Part shown: piece after piece, positions 4,389 through 33,983 of the stretch
Position numbering within the stretch: position 1 is the stretch's first letter
Layout of the letters: every line of letters begins with the position of its first letter
Source of the DNA: Parcubacteria group bacterium GW2011_GWA2_38_13b
GTDB taxonomy: Bacteria > Patescibacteriota > Minisyncoccia > GWA2-38-13b
Assembly: GCA_000992445.2 (NCBI GenBank)
Contig: LBUF02000001.1
Location: 126,393 to 180,918, forward strand
Direction of reading: 5' to 3'
DNA: 54,526 bases
The notes under the pieces: generated by a model
Told to the model about the DNA's origin: nothing
The model's database searches: none
What the model saw: the letters and a program-made list of their open reading frames with translations, nothing else
Made by a program: the position numbers and the translations under genes

Positions 4389-4391
<3 letters not shown>

Positions 4392-4531
4392 CCCGTTAGA
4401 AGCTTGTCTTCACCCCATTGGAAACATTGTTTCTAATGGGGTTTATACAATTAATTGGTTAACTTCCGACAAATATTTAATTAAATTACTTTATTTCCCG
4501 TTAGCGAAAAACTTCCAACGGGGTTCATGTG
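4389..4531 (-). promoter_or_regulatory. ftsH leader with competing inverted-repeat arms and a short upstream ORF
   Basis: On the minus strand, the leader first carries arm AACCCCGTTGGAAG (about 4512-4525), which can pair with CTAACGGG (4498-4505). A 14-bp hairpin follows, ACCCCATTAGAAAC-AAT-GTTTCCAATGGGGT (4412-4442). The last arm, CTTCTAACGGGGTG (4389-4402), contains the ftsH GTG start and can instead pair with the first arm. A 15-codon ORF beginning MNPVGSF (4528 to 4481) spans the first arms. Mutually exclusive pairings that expose or hide the start are therefore possible. Confidence 0.55.
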
Positions 4532-9546: not shown

Positions 9547-9608
9547 ATGAACCCCGTTAGACATCGTGGTAGTATCTTACTGGATTATGATAATGTTTAG
9601 ACGAGGTT
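9547..9608 (+). promoter_or_regulatory. Leader with MNPV-type short ORF and imperfect inverted repeat
   Basis: ATGAACCCCGTTAGA opens a 17-codon ORF (9547-9600, beginning MNPVRHRG). Arm AACCCCGTTAGACAT (9550-9564) pairs imperfectly with ATGTTTAGACGAGGTT (9593-9608), which ends just before the next gene's start. It belongs to the same repeat family as the ftsH and tyrS leaders. Confidence 0.5.
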
Positions 9609-9620
9609 TAATTGAAAAAT

Positions 9621-10034
9621 ATGTTAAAAAAGCAACAAAAAATGTCTAATGGAGTAAAAGCAAAATCTAAAAAATCGAACGATCATAATCACGATGATAT
9701 TCGTCAAGATATTCGGGGCCTTGGTGTTTTAATAGAACGAGTTAATGATAACGTGAGCTTTGTGGCGGAACAATACGAGGATATTAAACAAGATGTTTCT
9801 TCAATTAAACAAGATGTTTCTTCAATTAAACAAGATGTTTCTTCAATTAAACAAACAGTAGATTCTCACACGGAAACATTAGGTCATCATACCGAAATGA
9901 TTGGTTCTATGAAGACCGATATGGAAATTATGAAAACCGACATTGAATTTATTAAAACTTCCTTGAAGAGAAAAGTGGATGTTGAAGAATTCGCGGTTCT
10001 TGAAAGGCGGGTGGCTGCGTTAGAAAGAGGATAA
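9621..10034 (+). CDS. Hypothetical coiled-coil protein with 7-residue repeats
   Basis: About 137 residues with a basic N-terminus (KKQQKMSNGVKAKSKK), a helical region with hydrophobics every 3-4 residues, three exact copies of a DVSSIKQ heptad (DNA unit of 21 bases at 9792-9854), and a C-terminal EFAVLERRVAALERG that is a typical coiled-coil end. It probably forms a parallel bundle. No enzymatic motif is present, and similar proteins are simply labelled hypothetical. The frame could also open at a TTG at 9612; I prefer the ATG at 9621. It is preceded by a good promoter and a structured leader and followed by a strong terminator, so it is a single-gene unit. Confidence 0.6.
   Translation: MLKKQQKMSNGVKAKSKKSNDHNHDDIRQDIRGLGVLIERVNDNVSFVAEQYEDIKQDVSSIKQDVSSIKQDVSSIKQTVDSHTETLGHHTEMIGSMKTDMEIMKTDIEFIKTSLKRKVDVEEFAVLERRVAALERG
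9792..9854 (+). repeat. Three tandem 21-bp repeats inside the coiled-coil gene
   Basis: The unit GATGTTTCTTCAATTAAACA plus one A is present three times without change. Because 21 is a multiple of 3, copy-number change would lengthen or shorten the coiled coil by one heptad without a frameshift. Confidence 0.85.
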
Positions 10035-29562: not shown

Positions 29563-32553
29563 ATGGTGGTAATGACAATACTTCCTCTTGATGAAAATCA
29601 AAAAGATATTATTGAAAAACTTCGGCACAAAGCCGAAGAAGACCACGCTCAAAAAGAAGCGAAAAAAATCGGACTTCCTTACCTCAATCTGTGGATTATT
29701 CCGCTTAATGTGGATAATCTCATTACGGTTCCCGAAGAAATTTCACGAAAATCCGACATTGCGATCATAAGCAAAATAGGCAAAAAATTATCTGTCGGCA
29801 TCAGAAGTCTGAATAATCCGGCAACAAATAAAATACTGGAAGATCTAAAACAAAGAGGCTATGAACTTCGCCTTTTTTTCATTTCCCAAAGAAGCATTGA
29901 AAAGGCATGGCAAAGATACAAAGACTACATACCGCCGGCGCCGTCATTAGAAGAAATATTGACAATTGAAAAACAAGAACTGGACGATTTTCAAAAAAAC
30001 ATAGAAGATATAAAAAAATTAAAAGAAAAAATCATCAGCATTTCAACTACGGAGCTTTTAAAGACTCTTATGGCCGGAGCCATAGAATCGCGCGCGAGCG
30101 ATATCCATCTTGAACCCCAAAACGAATCAATCCGCTTACGCTACCGTATAGACGGTTTTCTTCAAGATATTATGGAAATCAAAAAAGAAAACTACGCCTT
30201 CTTGGTTTCAAGAGTAAAACTATTATCCGGTCTGCATCTTAATATTCATACTATCGGCCAAGACGGCCGCTTCGCCGTTAAAATAAACGAAAATGGAAAA
30301 ACGATAAAAGAAATAGACAATCGCGTTTCCATTATACCGACCGGTTTCGGCGAATCAATCGTCATTCGACTCCTGGGAAGCGCGGTTTCCAAAATTAAAC
30401 TGAAAGAATTGGGAATCAAAGATTATGTCTACGAAATCATTATACAGGCAATTTCCAAACCAAATGGGATGATATTAAACACCGGACCGACCGGTTCCGG
30501 AAAAACCACCACTCTTTACGCCGCTTTAAATTTTCTCAATAAACCGGGAGTTAAAATAATGACTATCGAAAAACCGATTGAATACAAACTCAAAGGAATA
30601 ACTCAAACGCAAGTTAATGAAAAAGACGGCTACACTTTTTTGGCGGGGCTCAAATCGGCAATGAGACAAGACCCCGACATTATTATGGTTGGGGAAATCC
30701 GAGACAAAGAAGAAGCGGATACGGCAATCCACGCCGCCTTAACCGGCCATATTGTTTTTTCCAGCATTCACACCAACAGCGCCGCGGGCACAATCGTCCG
30801 TTTAATTGACATCGGAATAGACAAAAAAATAATACCATCGGCCGTCAACGCCGTTATTTCCCAACGACTTGTCCGCCAGCTTTGCCCGGAATGCAAAGAA
30901 AAATACCAACCGGATCCCAAAATCGTCAAATCGCTAAAACAAGCCCTTTCGTTGATTTCTCCAAGAGTGATCGTAAAAATACCGAAAGAAATACCTTTTC
31001 TTTATAAACCGAAAGGATGCCCTAAATGTTTTGGATTGGGATATTATAAACAAATAGGAATATTTGAAGTTTTTACCATCAACGACAAGATTGAAAAACT
31101 AACATTGGAGGGCGCCACTTCTTTTGAATTAACCGCCGCCGCGATTGAACAGGGGATGGTAACGTTATTGCAAGACGGAATACTGAAAGCCATAGAAGGA
31201 ATTACCAGTCTGGAAGAAATAACGAGAGTTGCCGGCGACTCCCAATATATTGAAAGTTTATACGGAGCGGCGGTAAGTTCCCTTTTGACGCGAAGTTTGG
31301 AAATAGATAAAGAAATGTTGGAAAAAACCAAAGATATATGGAACAAAAAAGAAAAATTCACCGAAATACTGCGCAATCTTCCGCCGGAAAAACTACTTGA
31401 ATGGATTACAACGGCCGCTATTTGGGCGCGGGCGACCGATATTCATCTTGAACCGCGCGAAAACGAATTTGTCATCCGCTATAGAATTGACGGCTTACTG
31501 GAAACAGCCGCCGAAATGCCCAAAGATTATTTTTTGCCAATAGTGGCGGATTTAAAAATACTAAGCGGGATGAAAACGGAAATTCATAAAAAAATACAGG
31601 AAGGAAGATTTAATATTCAGCTAGAAGGCGAGACGGAAAACAGAGATACGCGCGTTTCCATAATTCCCGGAGGATACGGCGAAAATATTGACATCCGTCT
31701 TCTGGCAAAAGGAATAGAAAAACTCAAAATGGAAACATTAGGATTTATACCGAAAGATATGGAAACAATAGATAGGGAAATCGCCAAGCCGAATGGAATT
31801 ATTTTAGTCACCGGACCAACTTCCGCCGGCAAAACGACAACTCTTTACGCTATGTTGAATAGCGTTAATAAGCCCGGCGTCAAAATTCTGACCGCCGAAG
31901 ATCCGATCGAATATCGTTTGCCCGGAATAATTCAAACTCAAATAAACGAAGAAGAGGGATACACATTCGCCAGCGCTCTGCGTTCCTTTTTAAGACAAAA
32001 CCCGAATATTATGCTTATCGGCGAAATCCGCGACAAAGAAACGGCCGACATAGCCATCCGCGCTTCTTTGACGGGCCATTTGGTTTTTTCGACATTACAT
32101 ACAAATAGCGCCGTGGAATCAATCCAACGACTCTTAAATATCGGCATAACGGCGCAAGACATAGCATCATCGTTAAATATCGCCATTGCCCAACGGCTGA
32201 TCCGCCGGCTTTGCCCGGAATGCCGCGAAGAATATGCTCCGACAACGGAAGAATTAAAATACATCCAAGAAAATCTGCCTCAAAATGATCAAAAAATTCT
32301 TAAATCACCGAAACTTTACAAACCGAAAGGATGTCCTAAATGCTCCCCAACCGGCTTTAAGGGACAAATCGGTATTTTTGAAATACTGATAAACGATAGT
32401 GAGATACAAAATTTAATTTCCAAAAATATTCCCGTCCAACAAATAGACATTGAATTAAAGAAAAAAAATATGGTCACAATGACGCAAGACGGAATAAAAA
32501 AAGCGCTGGCAGGAATTACCACACTTAATGAAGTAAGAAGAGTAACGGAATAA
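29563..32553 (+). CDS. Tandem GspE/PilB-type ATPase (two motor domains in one chain)
   Basis: A 996-residue protein. An N-terminal MshEN/GspE_N-like domain (about 15-125) is followed by two complete type II/IV secretion ATPase domains. The first has Walker A GPTGSGKTTT (308-317), Walker B IIMVGEIRD (373-381), SSIHTNSAAGTI, and the tetracysteine zinc site CPEC/CPKC (441-444, 486-489). The second has GPTSAGKTTT (751-760), LIGEIRD, LHTNSAVESI and its own CPEC/CPKC pair. Both keep the RASDIHLEP/RATDIHLEP motif. Such ATPases drive pilus assembly as hexamers; here one chain supplies two subunits. No pilin or platform gene is adjacent, so the system served is unknown. Confidence 0.92.
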   Translation: MVVMTILPLDENQKDIIEKLRHKAEEDHAQKEAKKIGLPYLNLWIIPLNVDNLITVPEEISRKSDIAIISKIGKKLSVGIRSLNNPATNKILEDLKQRGYELRLFFISQRSIEKAWQRYKDYIPPAPSLEEILTIEKQELDDFQKNIEDIKKLKEKIISISTTELLKTLMAGAIESRASDIHLEPQNESIRLRYRIDGFLQDIMEIKKENYAFLVSRVKLLSGLHLNIHTIGQDGRFAVKINENGKTIKEIDNRVSIIPTGFGESIVIRLLGSAVSKIKLKELGIKDYVYEIIIQAISKPNGMILNTGPTGSGKTTTLYAALNFLNKPGVKIMTIEKPIEYKLKGITQTQVNEKDGYTFLAGLKSAMRQDPDIIMVGEIRDKEEADTAIHAALTGHIVFSSIHTNSAAGTIVRLIDIGIDKKIIPSAVNAVISQRLVRQLCPECKEKYQPDPKIVKSLKQALSLISPRVIVKIPKEIPFLYKPKGCPKCFGLGYYKQIGIFEVFTINDKIEKLTLEGATSFELTAAAIEQGMVTLLQDGILKAIEGITSLEEITRVAGDSQYIESLYGAAVSSLLTRSLEIDKEMLEKTKDIWNKKEKFTEILRNLPPEKLLEWITTAAIWARATDIHLEPRENEFVIRYRIDGLLETAAEMPKDYFLPIVADLKILSGMKTEIHKKIQEGRFNIQLEGETENRDTRVSIIPGGYGENIDIRLLAKGIEKLKMETLGFIPKDMETIDREIAKPNGIILVTGPTSAGKTTTLYAMLNSVNKPGVKILTAEDPIEYRLPGIIQTQINEEEGYTFASALRSFLRQNPNIMLIGEIRDKETADIAIRASLTGHLVFSTLHTNSAVESIQRLLNIGITAQDIASSLNIAIAQRLIRRLCPECREEYAPTTEELKYIQENLPQNDQKILKSPKLYKPKGCPKCSPTGFKGQIGIFEILINDSEIQNLISKNIPVQQIDIELKKKNMVTMTQDGIKKALAGITTLNEVRRVTE

Positions 32554-32554
32554 A

Positions 32555-32594
32555 CCCCGTTAAAAATTTCTGCAAAACATTATTTCTAACGGAG
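32555..32594. repeat. CCCCGTTA-type inverted repeat after the tandem ATPase
   Basis: CCCCGTTAAAAAT (32555-32567) and ATTTCTAACGGAG (32582-32594) are imperfect inverted arms of the same repeat family as in the ftsH and tyrS leaders. A further single arm, CCCCTGTTAGAAAT, occurs at about 32793-32806. Confidence 0.6.
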
Positions 32595-32602
32595 TAAAAA
32601 CA

Positions 32603-32757
32603 CCGTTCCTTAATCTGTAGGCAACTACTTTAACCGTTGGGAGGCTAAAGCCAAGATTTTTCCGAGGAATAATCCAGCCGAAGCCAGATTATCCTTAACT
32701 GGGAGAAAATCCCTAAAAAATCAATAAAGACCTAATTGCCTACAGATTAAGGAACGG
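32603..32757 (+). ncRNA. Candidate structured non-coding RNA, 155 nt, with perfect 22-bp closing stem
   Basis: Arms 32603-32624 (CCGTTCCTTAATCTG...) and 32736-32757 pair perfectly over 22 bp. Inside, helices nest in order. CTTTA pairs with TAAAG (32628-32632 with 32725-32729), GGC-TAAA-GCC forms a hairpin (32643-32652), and GATTTTT pairs with AAAAATC (32655-32661 with 32716-32722). GGAATAATC pairs with GATTATCC (32666-32674 with 32687-32694), and GGGA-GAAAA-TCCC forms a hairpin (32701-32713). It fits no RNA family that I recognise (not SRP RNA, tmRNA or RNase P RNA). A small mobile element with long terminal repeats is the alternative. Strand is assumed from its neighbours. Confidence 0.45.
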
Positions 32758-32763
32758 ACTTTA

Positions 32764-32828
32764 TATAATACTTCTAAAACCACATGAAGTCAACCCCTGT
32801 TAGAAATTTTTATCACAATTTTAAGTAA
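32764..32828 (+). promoter_or_regulatory. Possible promoter and short leader ORF before ruvB
   Basis: TATAAT (32764-32769) lies 7 bases after the structured element. A 14-codon ORF starting at 32784 encodes MKSTPVRNF and contains a CCCCTGTTAGAAAT repeat arm, similar to the MNPVR leaders upstream of other genes. No clear -35 box is seen. Confidence 0.35.
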
Positions 32829-32948: not shown

Positions 32949-33983
32949 ATGTCAATGAATTCCGACGACTTTTCCGTAATTTCCGCAAAAAAACAAACAA
33001 ATGACAAGAATCTGGATCTTTTTTTACGACCCCAAAATTTTGAAGAATATTACGGACAAGAAAAAATAAAAGAAAATTTGAAAATTCTCATTGAAGCGGC
33101 GCAAAAAAGAAAAGAAGCGCTTGAACACATATTGCTTTATGGTCCTGCCGGCATCGGCAAAACAAGCTTGGCTCATATTATAGCCAAAAGCACCGGCGCC
33201 AATTTAAAAATAACGTCCGGTCCGGCCATTGAAAAAGTGGGCGACCTGGCATCTATCTTAACAAACCTCGTAGACGGAGACATCCTGTTTATAGACGAAA
33301 TACACCGCTTAAATAAATTAGTGGAGGAAATTCTGTATCCGGCAATGGAGGATTATGTTTTGGACATAATCATCGGCAAAGGACCATCCGCCAAAACCCT
33401 ACAATTAAATCTTTCACGATTCACTCTTATAGGCGCCACCACCCGCATCGGACTCCTTTCTTCTCCTTTCCGAAGCCGTTTTGGCGTTACTCACCGGCTG
33501 GATTTTTACAACGACGGCGATATAGAAAAAATACTCAACCGATCAAGCAAAATATTAAACATAAAAACAGAAAAATCTGGAATAGAAACCATCGCCAAAT
33601 GTTCGCGTAAAACACCCCGGGTGGCAAACCGGCTTTTAAAAAGAGTCCGGGATTACGCCGAAGTAAAACGCAACGGCATCATACAAGAACAAACCGCCAA
33701 AGAAGCCCTAAAAATGCTGGAAATAGATGAGATAGGATTGGAACCGGCCGATAAAAGACTGTTAAAAATTATTATTGATAAATTCAATGGCGGACCGGTC
33801 GGACTACAAGCATTGTCAGCGGCTTCCAGTGAAGAAATAGATACAATAGAGGATATTTATGAACCGTTTTTAATGCAAATCGGCTTCATTGCCCGCACGC
33901 CACGCGGAAGAGTGGCAACAGAACACGCGTATAAACATTTAGGAATAAAATACGACAATAAAAAACAAAATATACTGTTATAG
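32949..33983 (+). CDS. ruvB: Holliday junction branch migration ATPase RuvB
   Basis: A 344-residue AAA+ motor that with RuvA moves Holliday junctions. The N-terminal RPQNFEEYYGQEKIKENL, Walker A GPAGIGKTS (65-73), SGPAIEKVGDLASIL, Walker B ILFIDEIHR, sensor GATTRIGLLSSPFRSRF and a C-terminal winged helix ending FIARTPRGRVATEHAY are all present and in order. ruvC lies about 1.9 kb downstream on the same strand, while ruvA is not in the window. The long upstream gap holds the 155-nt structured element and a CCCCGTTA repeat. Confidence 0.97.
   Translation: MSMNSDDFSVISAKKQTNDKNLDLFLRPQNFEEYYGQEKIKENLKILIEAAQKRKEALEHILLYGPAGIGKTSLAHIIAKSTGANLKITSGPAIEKVGDLASILTNLVDGDILFIDEIHRLNKLVEEILYPAMEDYVLDIIIGKGPSAKTLQLNLSRFTLIGATTRIGLLSSPFRSRFGVTHRLDFYNDGDIEKILNRSSKILNIKTEKSGIETIAKCSRKTPRVANRLLKRVRDYAEVKRNGIIQEQTAKEALKMLEIDEIGLEPADKRLLKIIIDKFNGGPVGLQALSAASSEEIDTIEDIYEPFLMQIGFIARTPRGRVATEHAYKHLGIKYDNKKQNILL

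Follow-up and report, generated by a model that had tools for sequence, protein, structure and literature searches.

A putative single-copy structured RNA gene between pilB and ruvB, inherited across a large class of Patescibacteria

The Patescibacteria form a vast group of bacteria with minimal genomes, most of them never cultured. The window analysed here, 54,526 nucleotides of one contig from Parcubacteria group bacterium GW2011_GWA2_38_13b, holds between a pilB-like ATPase gene and ruvB a 155-nt element with complementary ends, and the question is what this element encodes. An earlier note, made from the sequence alone, had described it as lying in a 395-base non-coding gap and had offered two answers: either the RNA is structured and new, or this is a miniature mobile element. 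The gap was confirmed (pilB-like stop at 32553 to ruvB start at 32949), and the perfect 22-bp closing stem reported for the element was likewise found (arms 32603–32624 and 32736–32757, no mismatch), lying within a 33-nt inverted repeat. As set out below, the locus is best read as an independent gene on the minus strand for a ~160-nt non-coding RNA (Table 1); that the gene and its fold are real is, in our judgement, almost certain.

Occurrence and copy number

The first homologue, on a Candidatus Portnoybacteria contig (L043), was obtained through an exact 17-mer match; another such match (L045) was inspected and judged to be due to chance, leaving L043 alone shown homologous. A covariance model built from two sequences (R1) was then run on 380 genomes of the phylum and detected nine clear homologues, all from the same class. 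When a second model (R2) was built from these nine, with the window and L043 left out, it found the window itself at E 8.2e-31 and matched 265 of the 384 genomes of the class, almost invariably once each, with E-values from short calibrations and in genomes that are mostly incomplete assemblies. Thirty class genomes taken as lacking a match (one of them, G249, did match R2, at E 2e-5) yielded 29 ruvB loci, and at 19 of these a third model (R3) found diverged matches, three of them weak, in the ruvB–pilB gap and on the expected strand. Since the ruvB loci of unmatched genomes hold diverged copies, the true prevalence in the class must exceed the 69% detected and, by extrapolation, is perhaps near 90%. 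The covariance search proposed in the earlier note thus reveals homologues throughout most of one large class.

The single copy bears directly on the second answer. If the element were a miniature mobile one bounded by terminal inverted repeats, this would explain both the perfect inverted repeat and the dispersed CCCCGTTA palindromes adjoining it, and further copies should then be found in the same genome. None was: the element is single copy, which argues against mobility, and it occupies the same place between the same flanking genes in dozens of families, its inner helices covarying. This reading is thereby refuted and can be given only a vanishing probability.

The CCCCGTTA arms were said to flank the element on both sides, which holds on the left, where they form a convergent pair (32553–32566 and 32583–32596), and fails on the right, where only one imperfect arm (ACCCCTGTTAGAAA, about 32794–32807) is present. 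We rejected these flanks as part of the RNA, as they belong to a dispersed repeat of the window genome and are absent from 303 kb of homologous loci of the class. This inverted repeat, ACCCCGTTAGAAA ... TTTCTAACGGGGT, occurs at 38 places in the window genome, compared with 4 for the reversed control, with copies at 4389–4443, 9550–9656 and 32553–32596 of the window and at L192:9637–9718 and L201:2456–2537. It forms 10 convergent pairs 41–99 nt apart and no divergent ones, often at gene ends and around unrelated DNA; a similar palindrome is present in L143.

Strand, promoter and fold

The 155 nt fold much more stably than dinucleotide shuffles on both strands (z = -8.5 for the plus strand and -9.6 for the minus strand, with 0 of 200 shuffles equal). 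The minus strand is the more stable of the two, by 12 kcal/mol in the window (-73 vs -61 kcal/mol) and by 19 kcal/mol in the nearest homologue, L043 (-68 vs -49 kcal/mol). In the paired columns of 69 aligned homologues, 478 cells hold G-U and 55 hold A-C, counts that would be swapped on the opposite strand and therefore fix the minus strand as the coding one. At least five nested internal helices had been drawn earlier on the plus strand; since the RNA is encoded on the minus strand, these are not the real ones.

A plus-strand TATAAT, also pointed out in the earlier note, is an unlikely promoter, the likely one being TTGACT-17-TATTAT on the minus strand (32793–32765). A promoter of at least 10/12 within 100 nt upstream is present in 55 of the 69 homologues, compared with 4.3% of shuffles and with 3/69 on the opposite side. 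At the other end, a run of at least five T behind the closing stem is found in 39/69 homologues vs 12% of random places, and in the window this run is the likely terminator. Fold energy, the G-U and A-C counts, the promoter and the U-run together rule out a plus-strand RNA and place the gene on the minus strand, with the promoter and U-run setting the predicted 5′ end near 32758 and the 3′ end near 32597. These signals suggest an independent gene, transcribed from its own promoter.

Table 1. Features of the RNA locus, in window coordinates
Feature	Position	Strand	Basis
-35 hexamer TTGACT	32788..32793	-	sigma-70 promoter of the putative RNA
-10 hexamer TATTAT, 17-nt spacer, 7 nt ahead of the RNA	32765..32770	-	sigma-70 promoter
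Structured RNA gene, ~160 nt	32597..32758	-	covariance models R1–R3; strand from folding stability and G-U counts
P1 closing helix, 5′ arm, 22–24 bp	32734..32757	-	fold, inverted repeat, covariation
P2, 5′ hairpin, optional: weakly formed in the window, absent from some homologues	32718..32733	-	fold
P3, conserved central hairpin	32653..32713	-	fold, covariation, conservation
P4, 3′ hairpin	32627..32651	-	fold, covariation, mutual information
P1 closing helix, 3′ arm	32603..32626	-	fold, inverted repeat, covariation
U-run UGUUUUUA behind P1, likely terminator	32595..32602	-	sequence; homologues
pilB-like ATPase gene, convergent neighbour	29563..32553	+	two ATPase units sharing a single reading frame
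ruvB, next to the promoter end of the RNA and antisense to it	32949..33983	+	ORF, homologous loci

The minus-strand fold was evaluated on an alignment of the 69 homologues (A5), in which 44 of the 51 pairs have undergone compensatory changes on both sides. Paired cells amount to 92.5%, falling to ~50% when the structure is slid by one column, and the covariation score is 0.629 vs 0.243 in shuffles, all of this on an alignment that was fitted to the model structure and so favours it. The 18 strongest mutual-information pairs are all pairs of the model, and single-sequence folds of homologues agree with it. Compensatory changes in the outer stem and the inner helices, which the earlier note had named as support for an RNA, are therefore present in the minus-strand fold.

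Across the family P1 spans ~20–27 bp, with a conserved inner end (CUGURGGC/GCCYACAG). P3, the best conserved part, contains an asymmetric loop, a bulge adjoining the invariant GG/CC pairs, and wobbles (U.G and G.U); it carries CCUCGG on its 3′ side and a mostly UNCG-like tetraloop with wobbles beneath, which in the window is UUCG (32679–32682). The conserved letters sit in helices, bulge and wobbles and not in open loops, and P2 and P4 vary in their loops.

Weaker R3 matches were detected in other classes, two of them adjoining ruvB (L149 and L157). In a second class, that of G331, 67 of 381 genomes give a match, in a diverged form of ~123 nt (L241–L268, L151 and L154; ~1501–1625) in which 40 of 48 pairs show double-sided changes among 28 aligned members. 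P1 of this form covaries around a 14-nt junction, CACGACAAGCAUGG, that is almost invariant in these members, and a 3′ UUCUUG is present here too. Most of its loci have neither ruvB nor pilB nearby; a few copies are close to ruvB or to the DHH-type gene, which in the window comes before pilB. The best reading of these sequences is a homologous, diverged form, in preference to an independent origin. Near-universal inheritance within the first class, with diverged relatives elsewhere, is apparent from the sequence comparison.

Comparison with known RNAs

The statement that the element resembles no common bacterial RNA holds against Rfam 15, none of whose 4227 families matches beyond chance. At curated cut-offs neither the element and its homologues nor the second-class forms gave a match, and similarities to microRNA- and snoRNA-like families, far under their cut-offs, were dismissed as chance hairpin likeness. 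Phage records contained no match to the element, and no description of such an RNA was found in the open-access papers searched. Like the candidate structured RNAs in Rfam 15, the element is conserved, was found by comparison and has no assigned function; unlike them, it belongs to no family there. Taken with the covariation, the near-universal single copies and the promoter and U-run, the lack of an Rfam match strongly supports the first answer of the earlier note, a new structured RNA. A riboswitch or other mRNA leader does not fit: no gene follows on the RNA's own strand, and in 67/69 loci the RNA points towards pilB from that gene's 3′ side.

Among known RNAs, 6S RNA (ssrS; RF00013) shares general features with the element, namely similar length, a long closing stem, an own promoter, a single copy and broad conservation, and RF00013 reaches its cut-off in 0/73 class genomes, so that a very remote 6S RNA deserves consideration. 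It differs in that RF00013 fails to match the element or any homologue even at E 5–10, and in that the large open central bubble typical of 6S RNA is missing, the predicted folds of members lacking P2 leaving hardly any 5′ nucleotides unpaired between P1 and P3. Two class genomes that carry the RNA also hold a separate 6S-like candidate elsewhere, below the cut-off. The element consequently falls outside the definition of 6S RNA, and we consider even a very remote member of that family improbable. The two candidates just mentioned (L143:1501–1649 and L144:1501–1653, both on the plus strand) score 33 bits vs a cut-off of 46.4 and have CACCCACCUGGA in common; in these bacteria 6S RNA may have diverged too far for Rfam to recognise it.

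A diverged SRP RNA (RF00169) is suggested by the likeness to a near-universal structured housekeeping RNA with a conserved, tetraloop-capped hairpin, and RF00169 was silent in 55 class genomes while detecting 11/14 controls. The Ffh-binding core (AGG ... tetraloop ... AGCAG) is missing from the consensus of 69 members, and no convincing core motif exists in the 874,960 bases read of the window genome. E. coli Ffh and FtsY found no match in these bases and motif scans were empty, in agreement with the reported failure to detect Ffh and FtsY genes in Parcubacteria (PMC4508563). The missing protein partner refutes this identity, unless it is encoded in the 5% of the genome that is missing, and hardly any chance is left to it.

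Neighbourhood and proposed role

In the 69 loci the RNA is always antisense to its neighbours, lying between ruvB on the promoter side (found in 61) and the pilB-like gene (67), the latter converging on it. In the window the pilB-like product has 996 aa and two PilB/GspE ATPase units, each half aligning to single-unit homologues. In one genome (L186; G223:C10:14242–15213) the ruvB match is reported with one in-frame TGA, which would reflect misassembly, recoding or loss of the gene's function as a pseudogene.

The conserved position between pilB and ruvB would also fit a role in cis, with the element, as an antisense RNA or a terminator working in both directions, stopping transcription of pilB, insulating ruvB or regulating either gene. 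A-rich and U-rich stretches flanking P1 on both sides in many members would suit such a terminator. A terminator requires P1 alone, whereas conservation is strongest in P3. Moreover, the RNA is retained without ruvB or pilB beside it (some such loci being contig ends) and with pilB 0.4–1.3 kb away, indicating that adjacency is not strictly required, and most second-class loci have neither gene nearby. We therefore hold a role in cis to be unlikely.

The placement of conserved letters within helices, bulge and wobbles instead suggests recognition by a protein. Together with the RNA's own promoter and its survival when separated from its neighbours, this leads us to favour a trans-acting, protein-binding housekeeping RNA with a hypothetical partner, a reading to which we give a probability of about one in two. 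Under this proposal, the sigma-70 promoter on the minus strand would drive a single-copy gene for a non-coding RNA of ~160 nt, with transcription stopping at the U-run behind P1. The transcript would fold into the long P1, a junction bearing the optional P2 and P4, and the conserved central P3. It would be stable, constitutively made and active in trans, with a protein partner docking on the core of P3 and on P1 at its inner end, as in 6S and other housekeeping ribonucleoproteins. The mode of action would be protein docking, as opposed to base pairing or control of the neighbours in cis.

Base pairing deserves separate mention, since the nearly invariant junction CACGACAAGCAUGG of the second class could serve it instead of protein binding. 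A base-pairing regulator or ribozyme acting through this junction or the P3 core would also be in line with the conserved internal-loop letters. The window's own class has no comparable conserved unpaired stretch, its P2 and P4 loops being variable, and no Rfam ribozyme family matches, making this alternative quite unlikely compared with the protein-binding role.

The RNA is absent from Rfam and previously unlisted. When most of a class with minimal genomes retains one copy of a structured RNA, and further classes have recognisable forms of it, that RNA is expected to be important; where the SRP has been lost, one may ask which central process employs a near-universal RNA. With a covariance model, a fixed location and a conserved core in hand, the RNA is directly testable in metatranscriptomes and in cultivated members. 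It is probably an unrecognised housekeeping ribonucleoprotein RNA of Patescibacteria, present once per genome, ancestral to at least two classes and as basic to these bacteria as 6S or SRP RNA is elsewhere.
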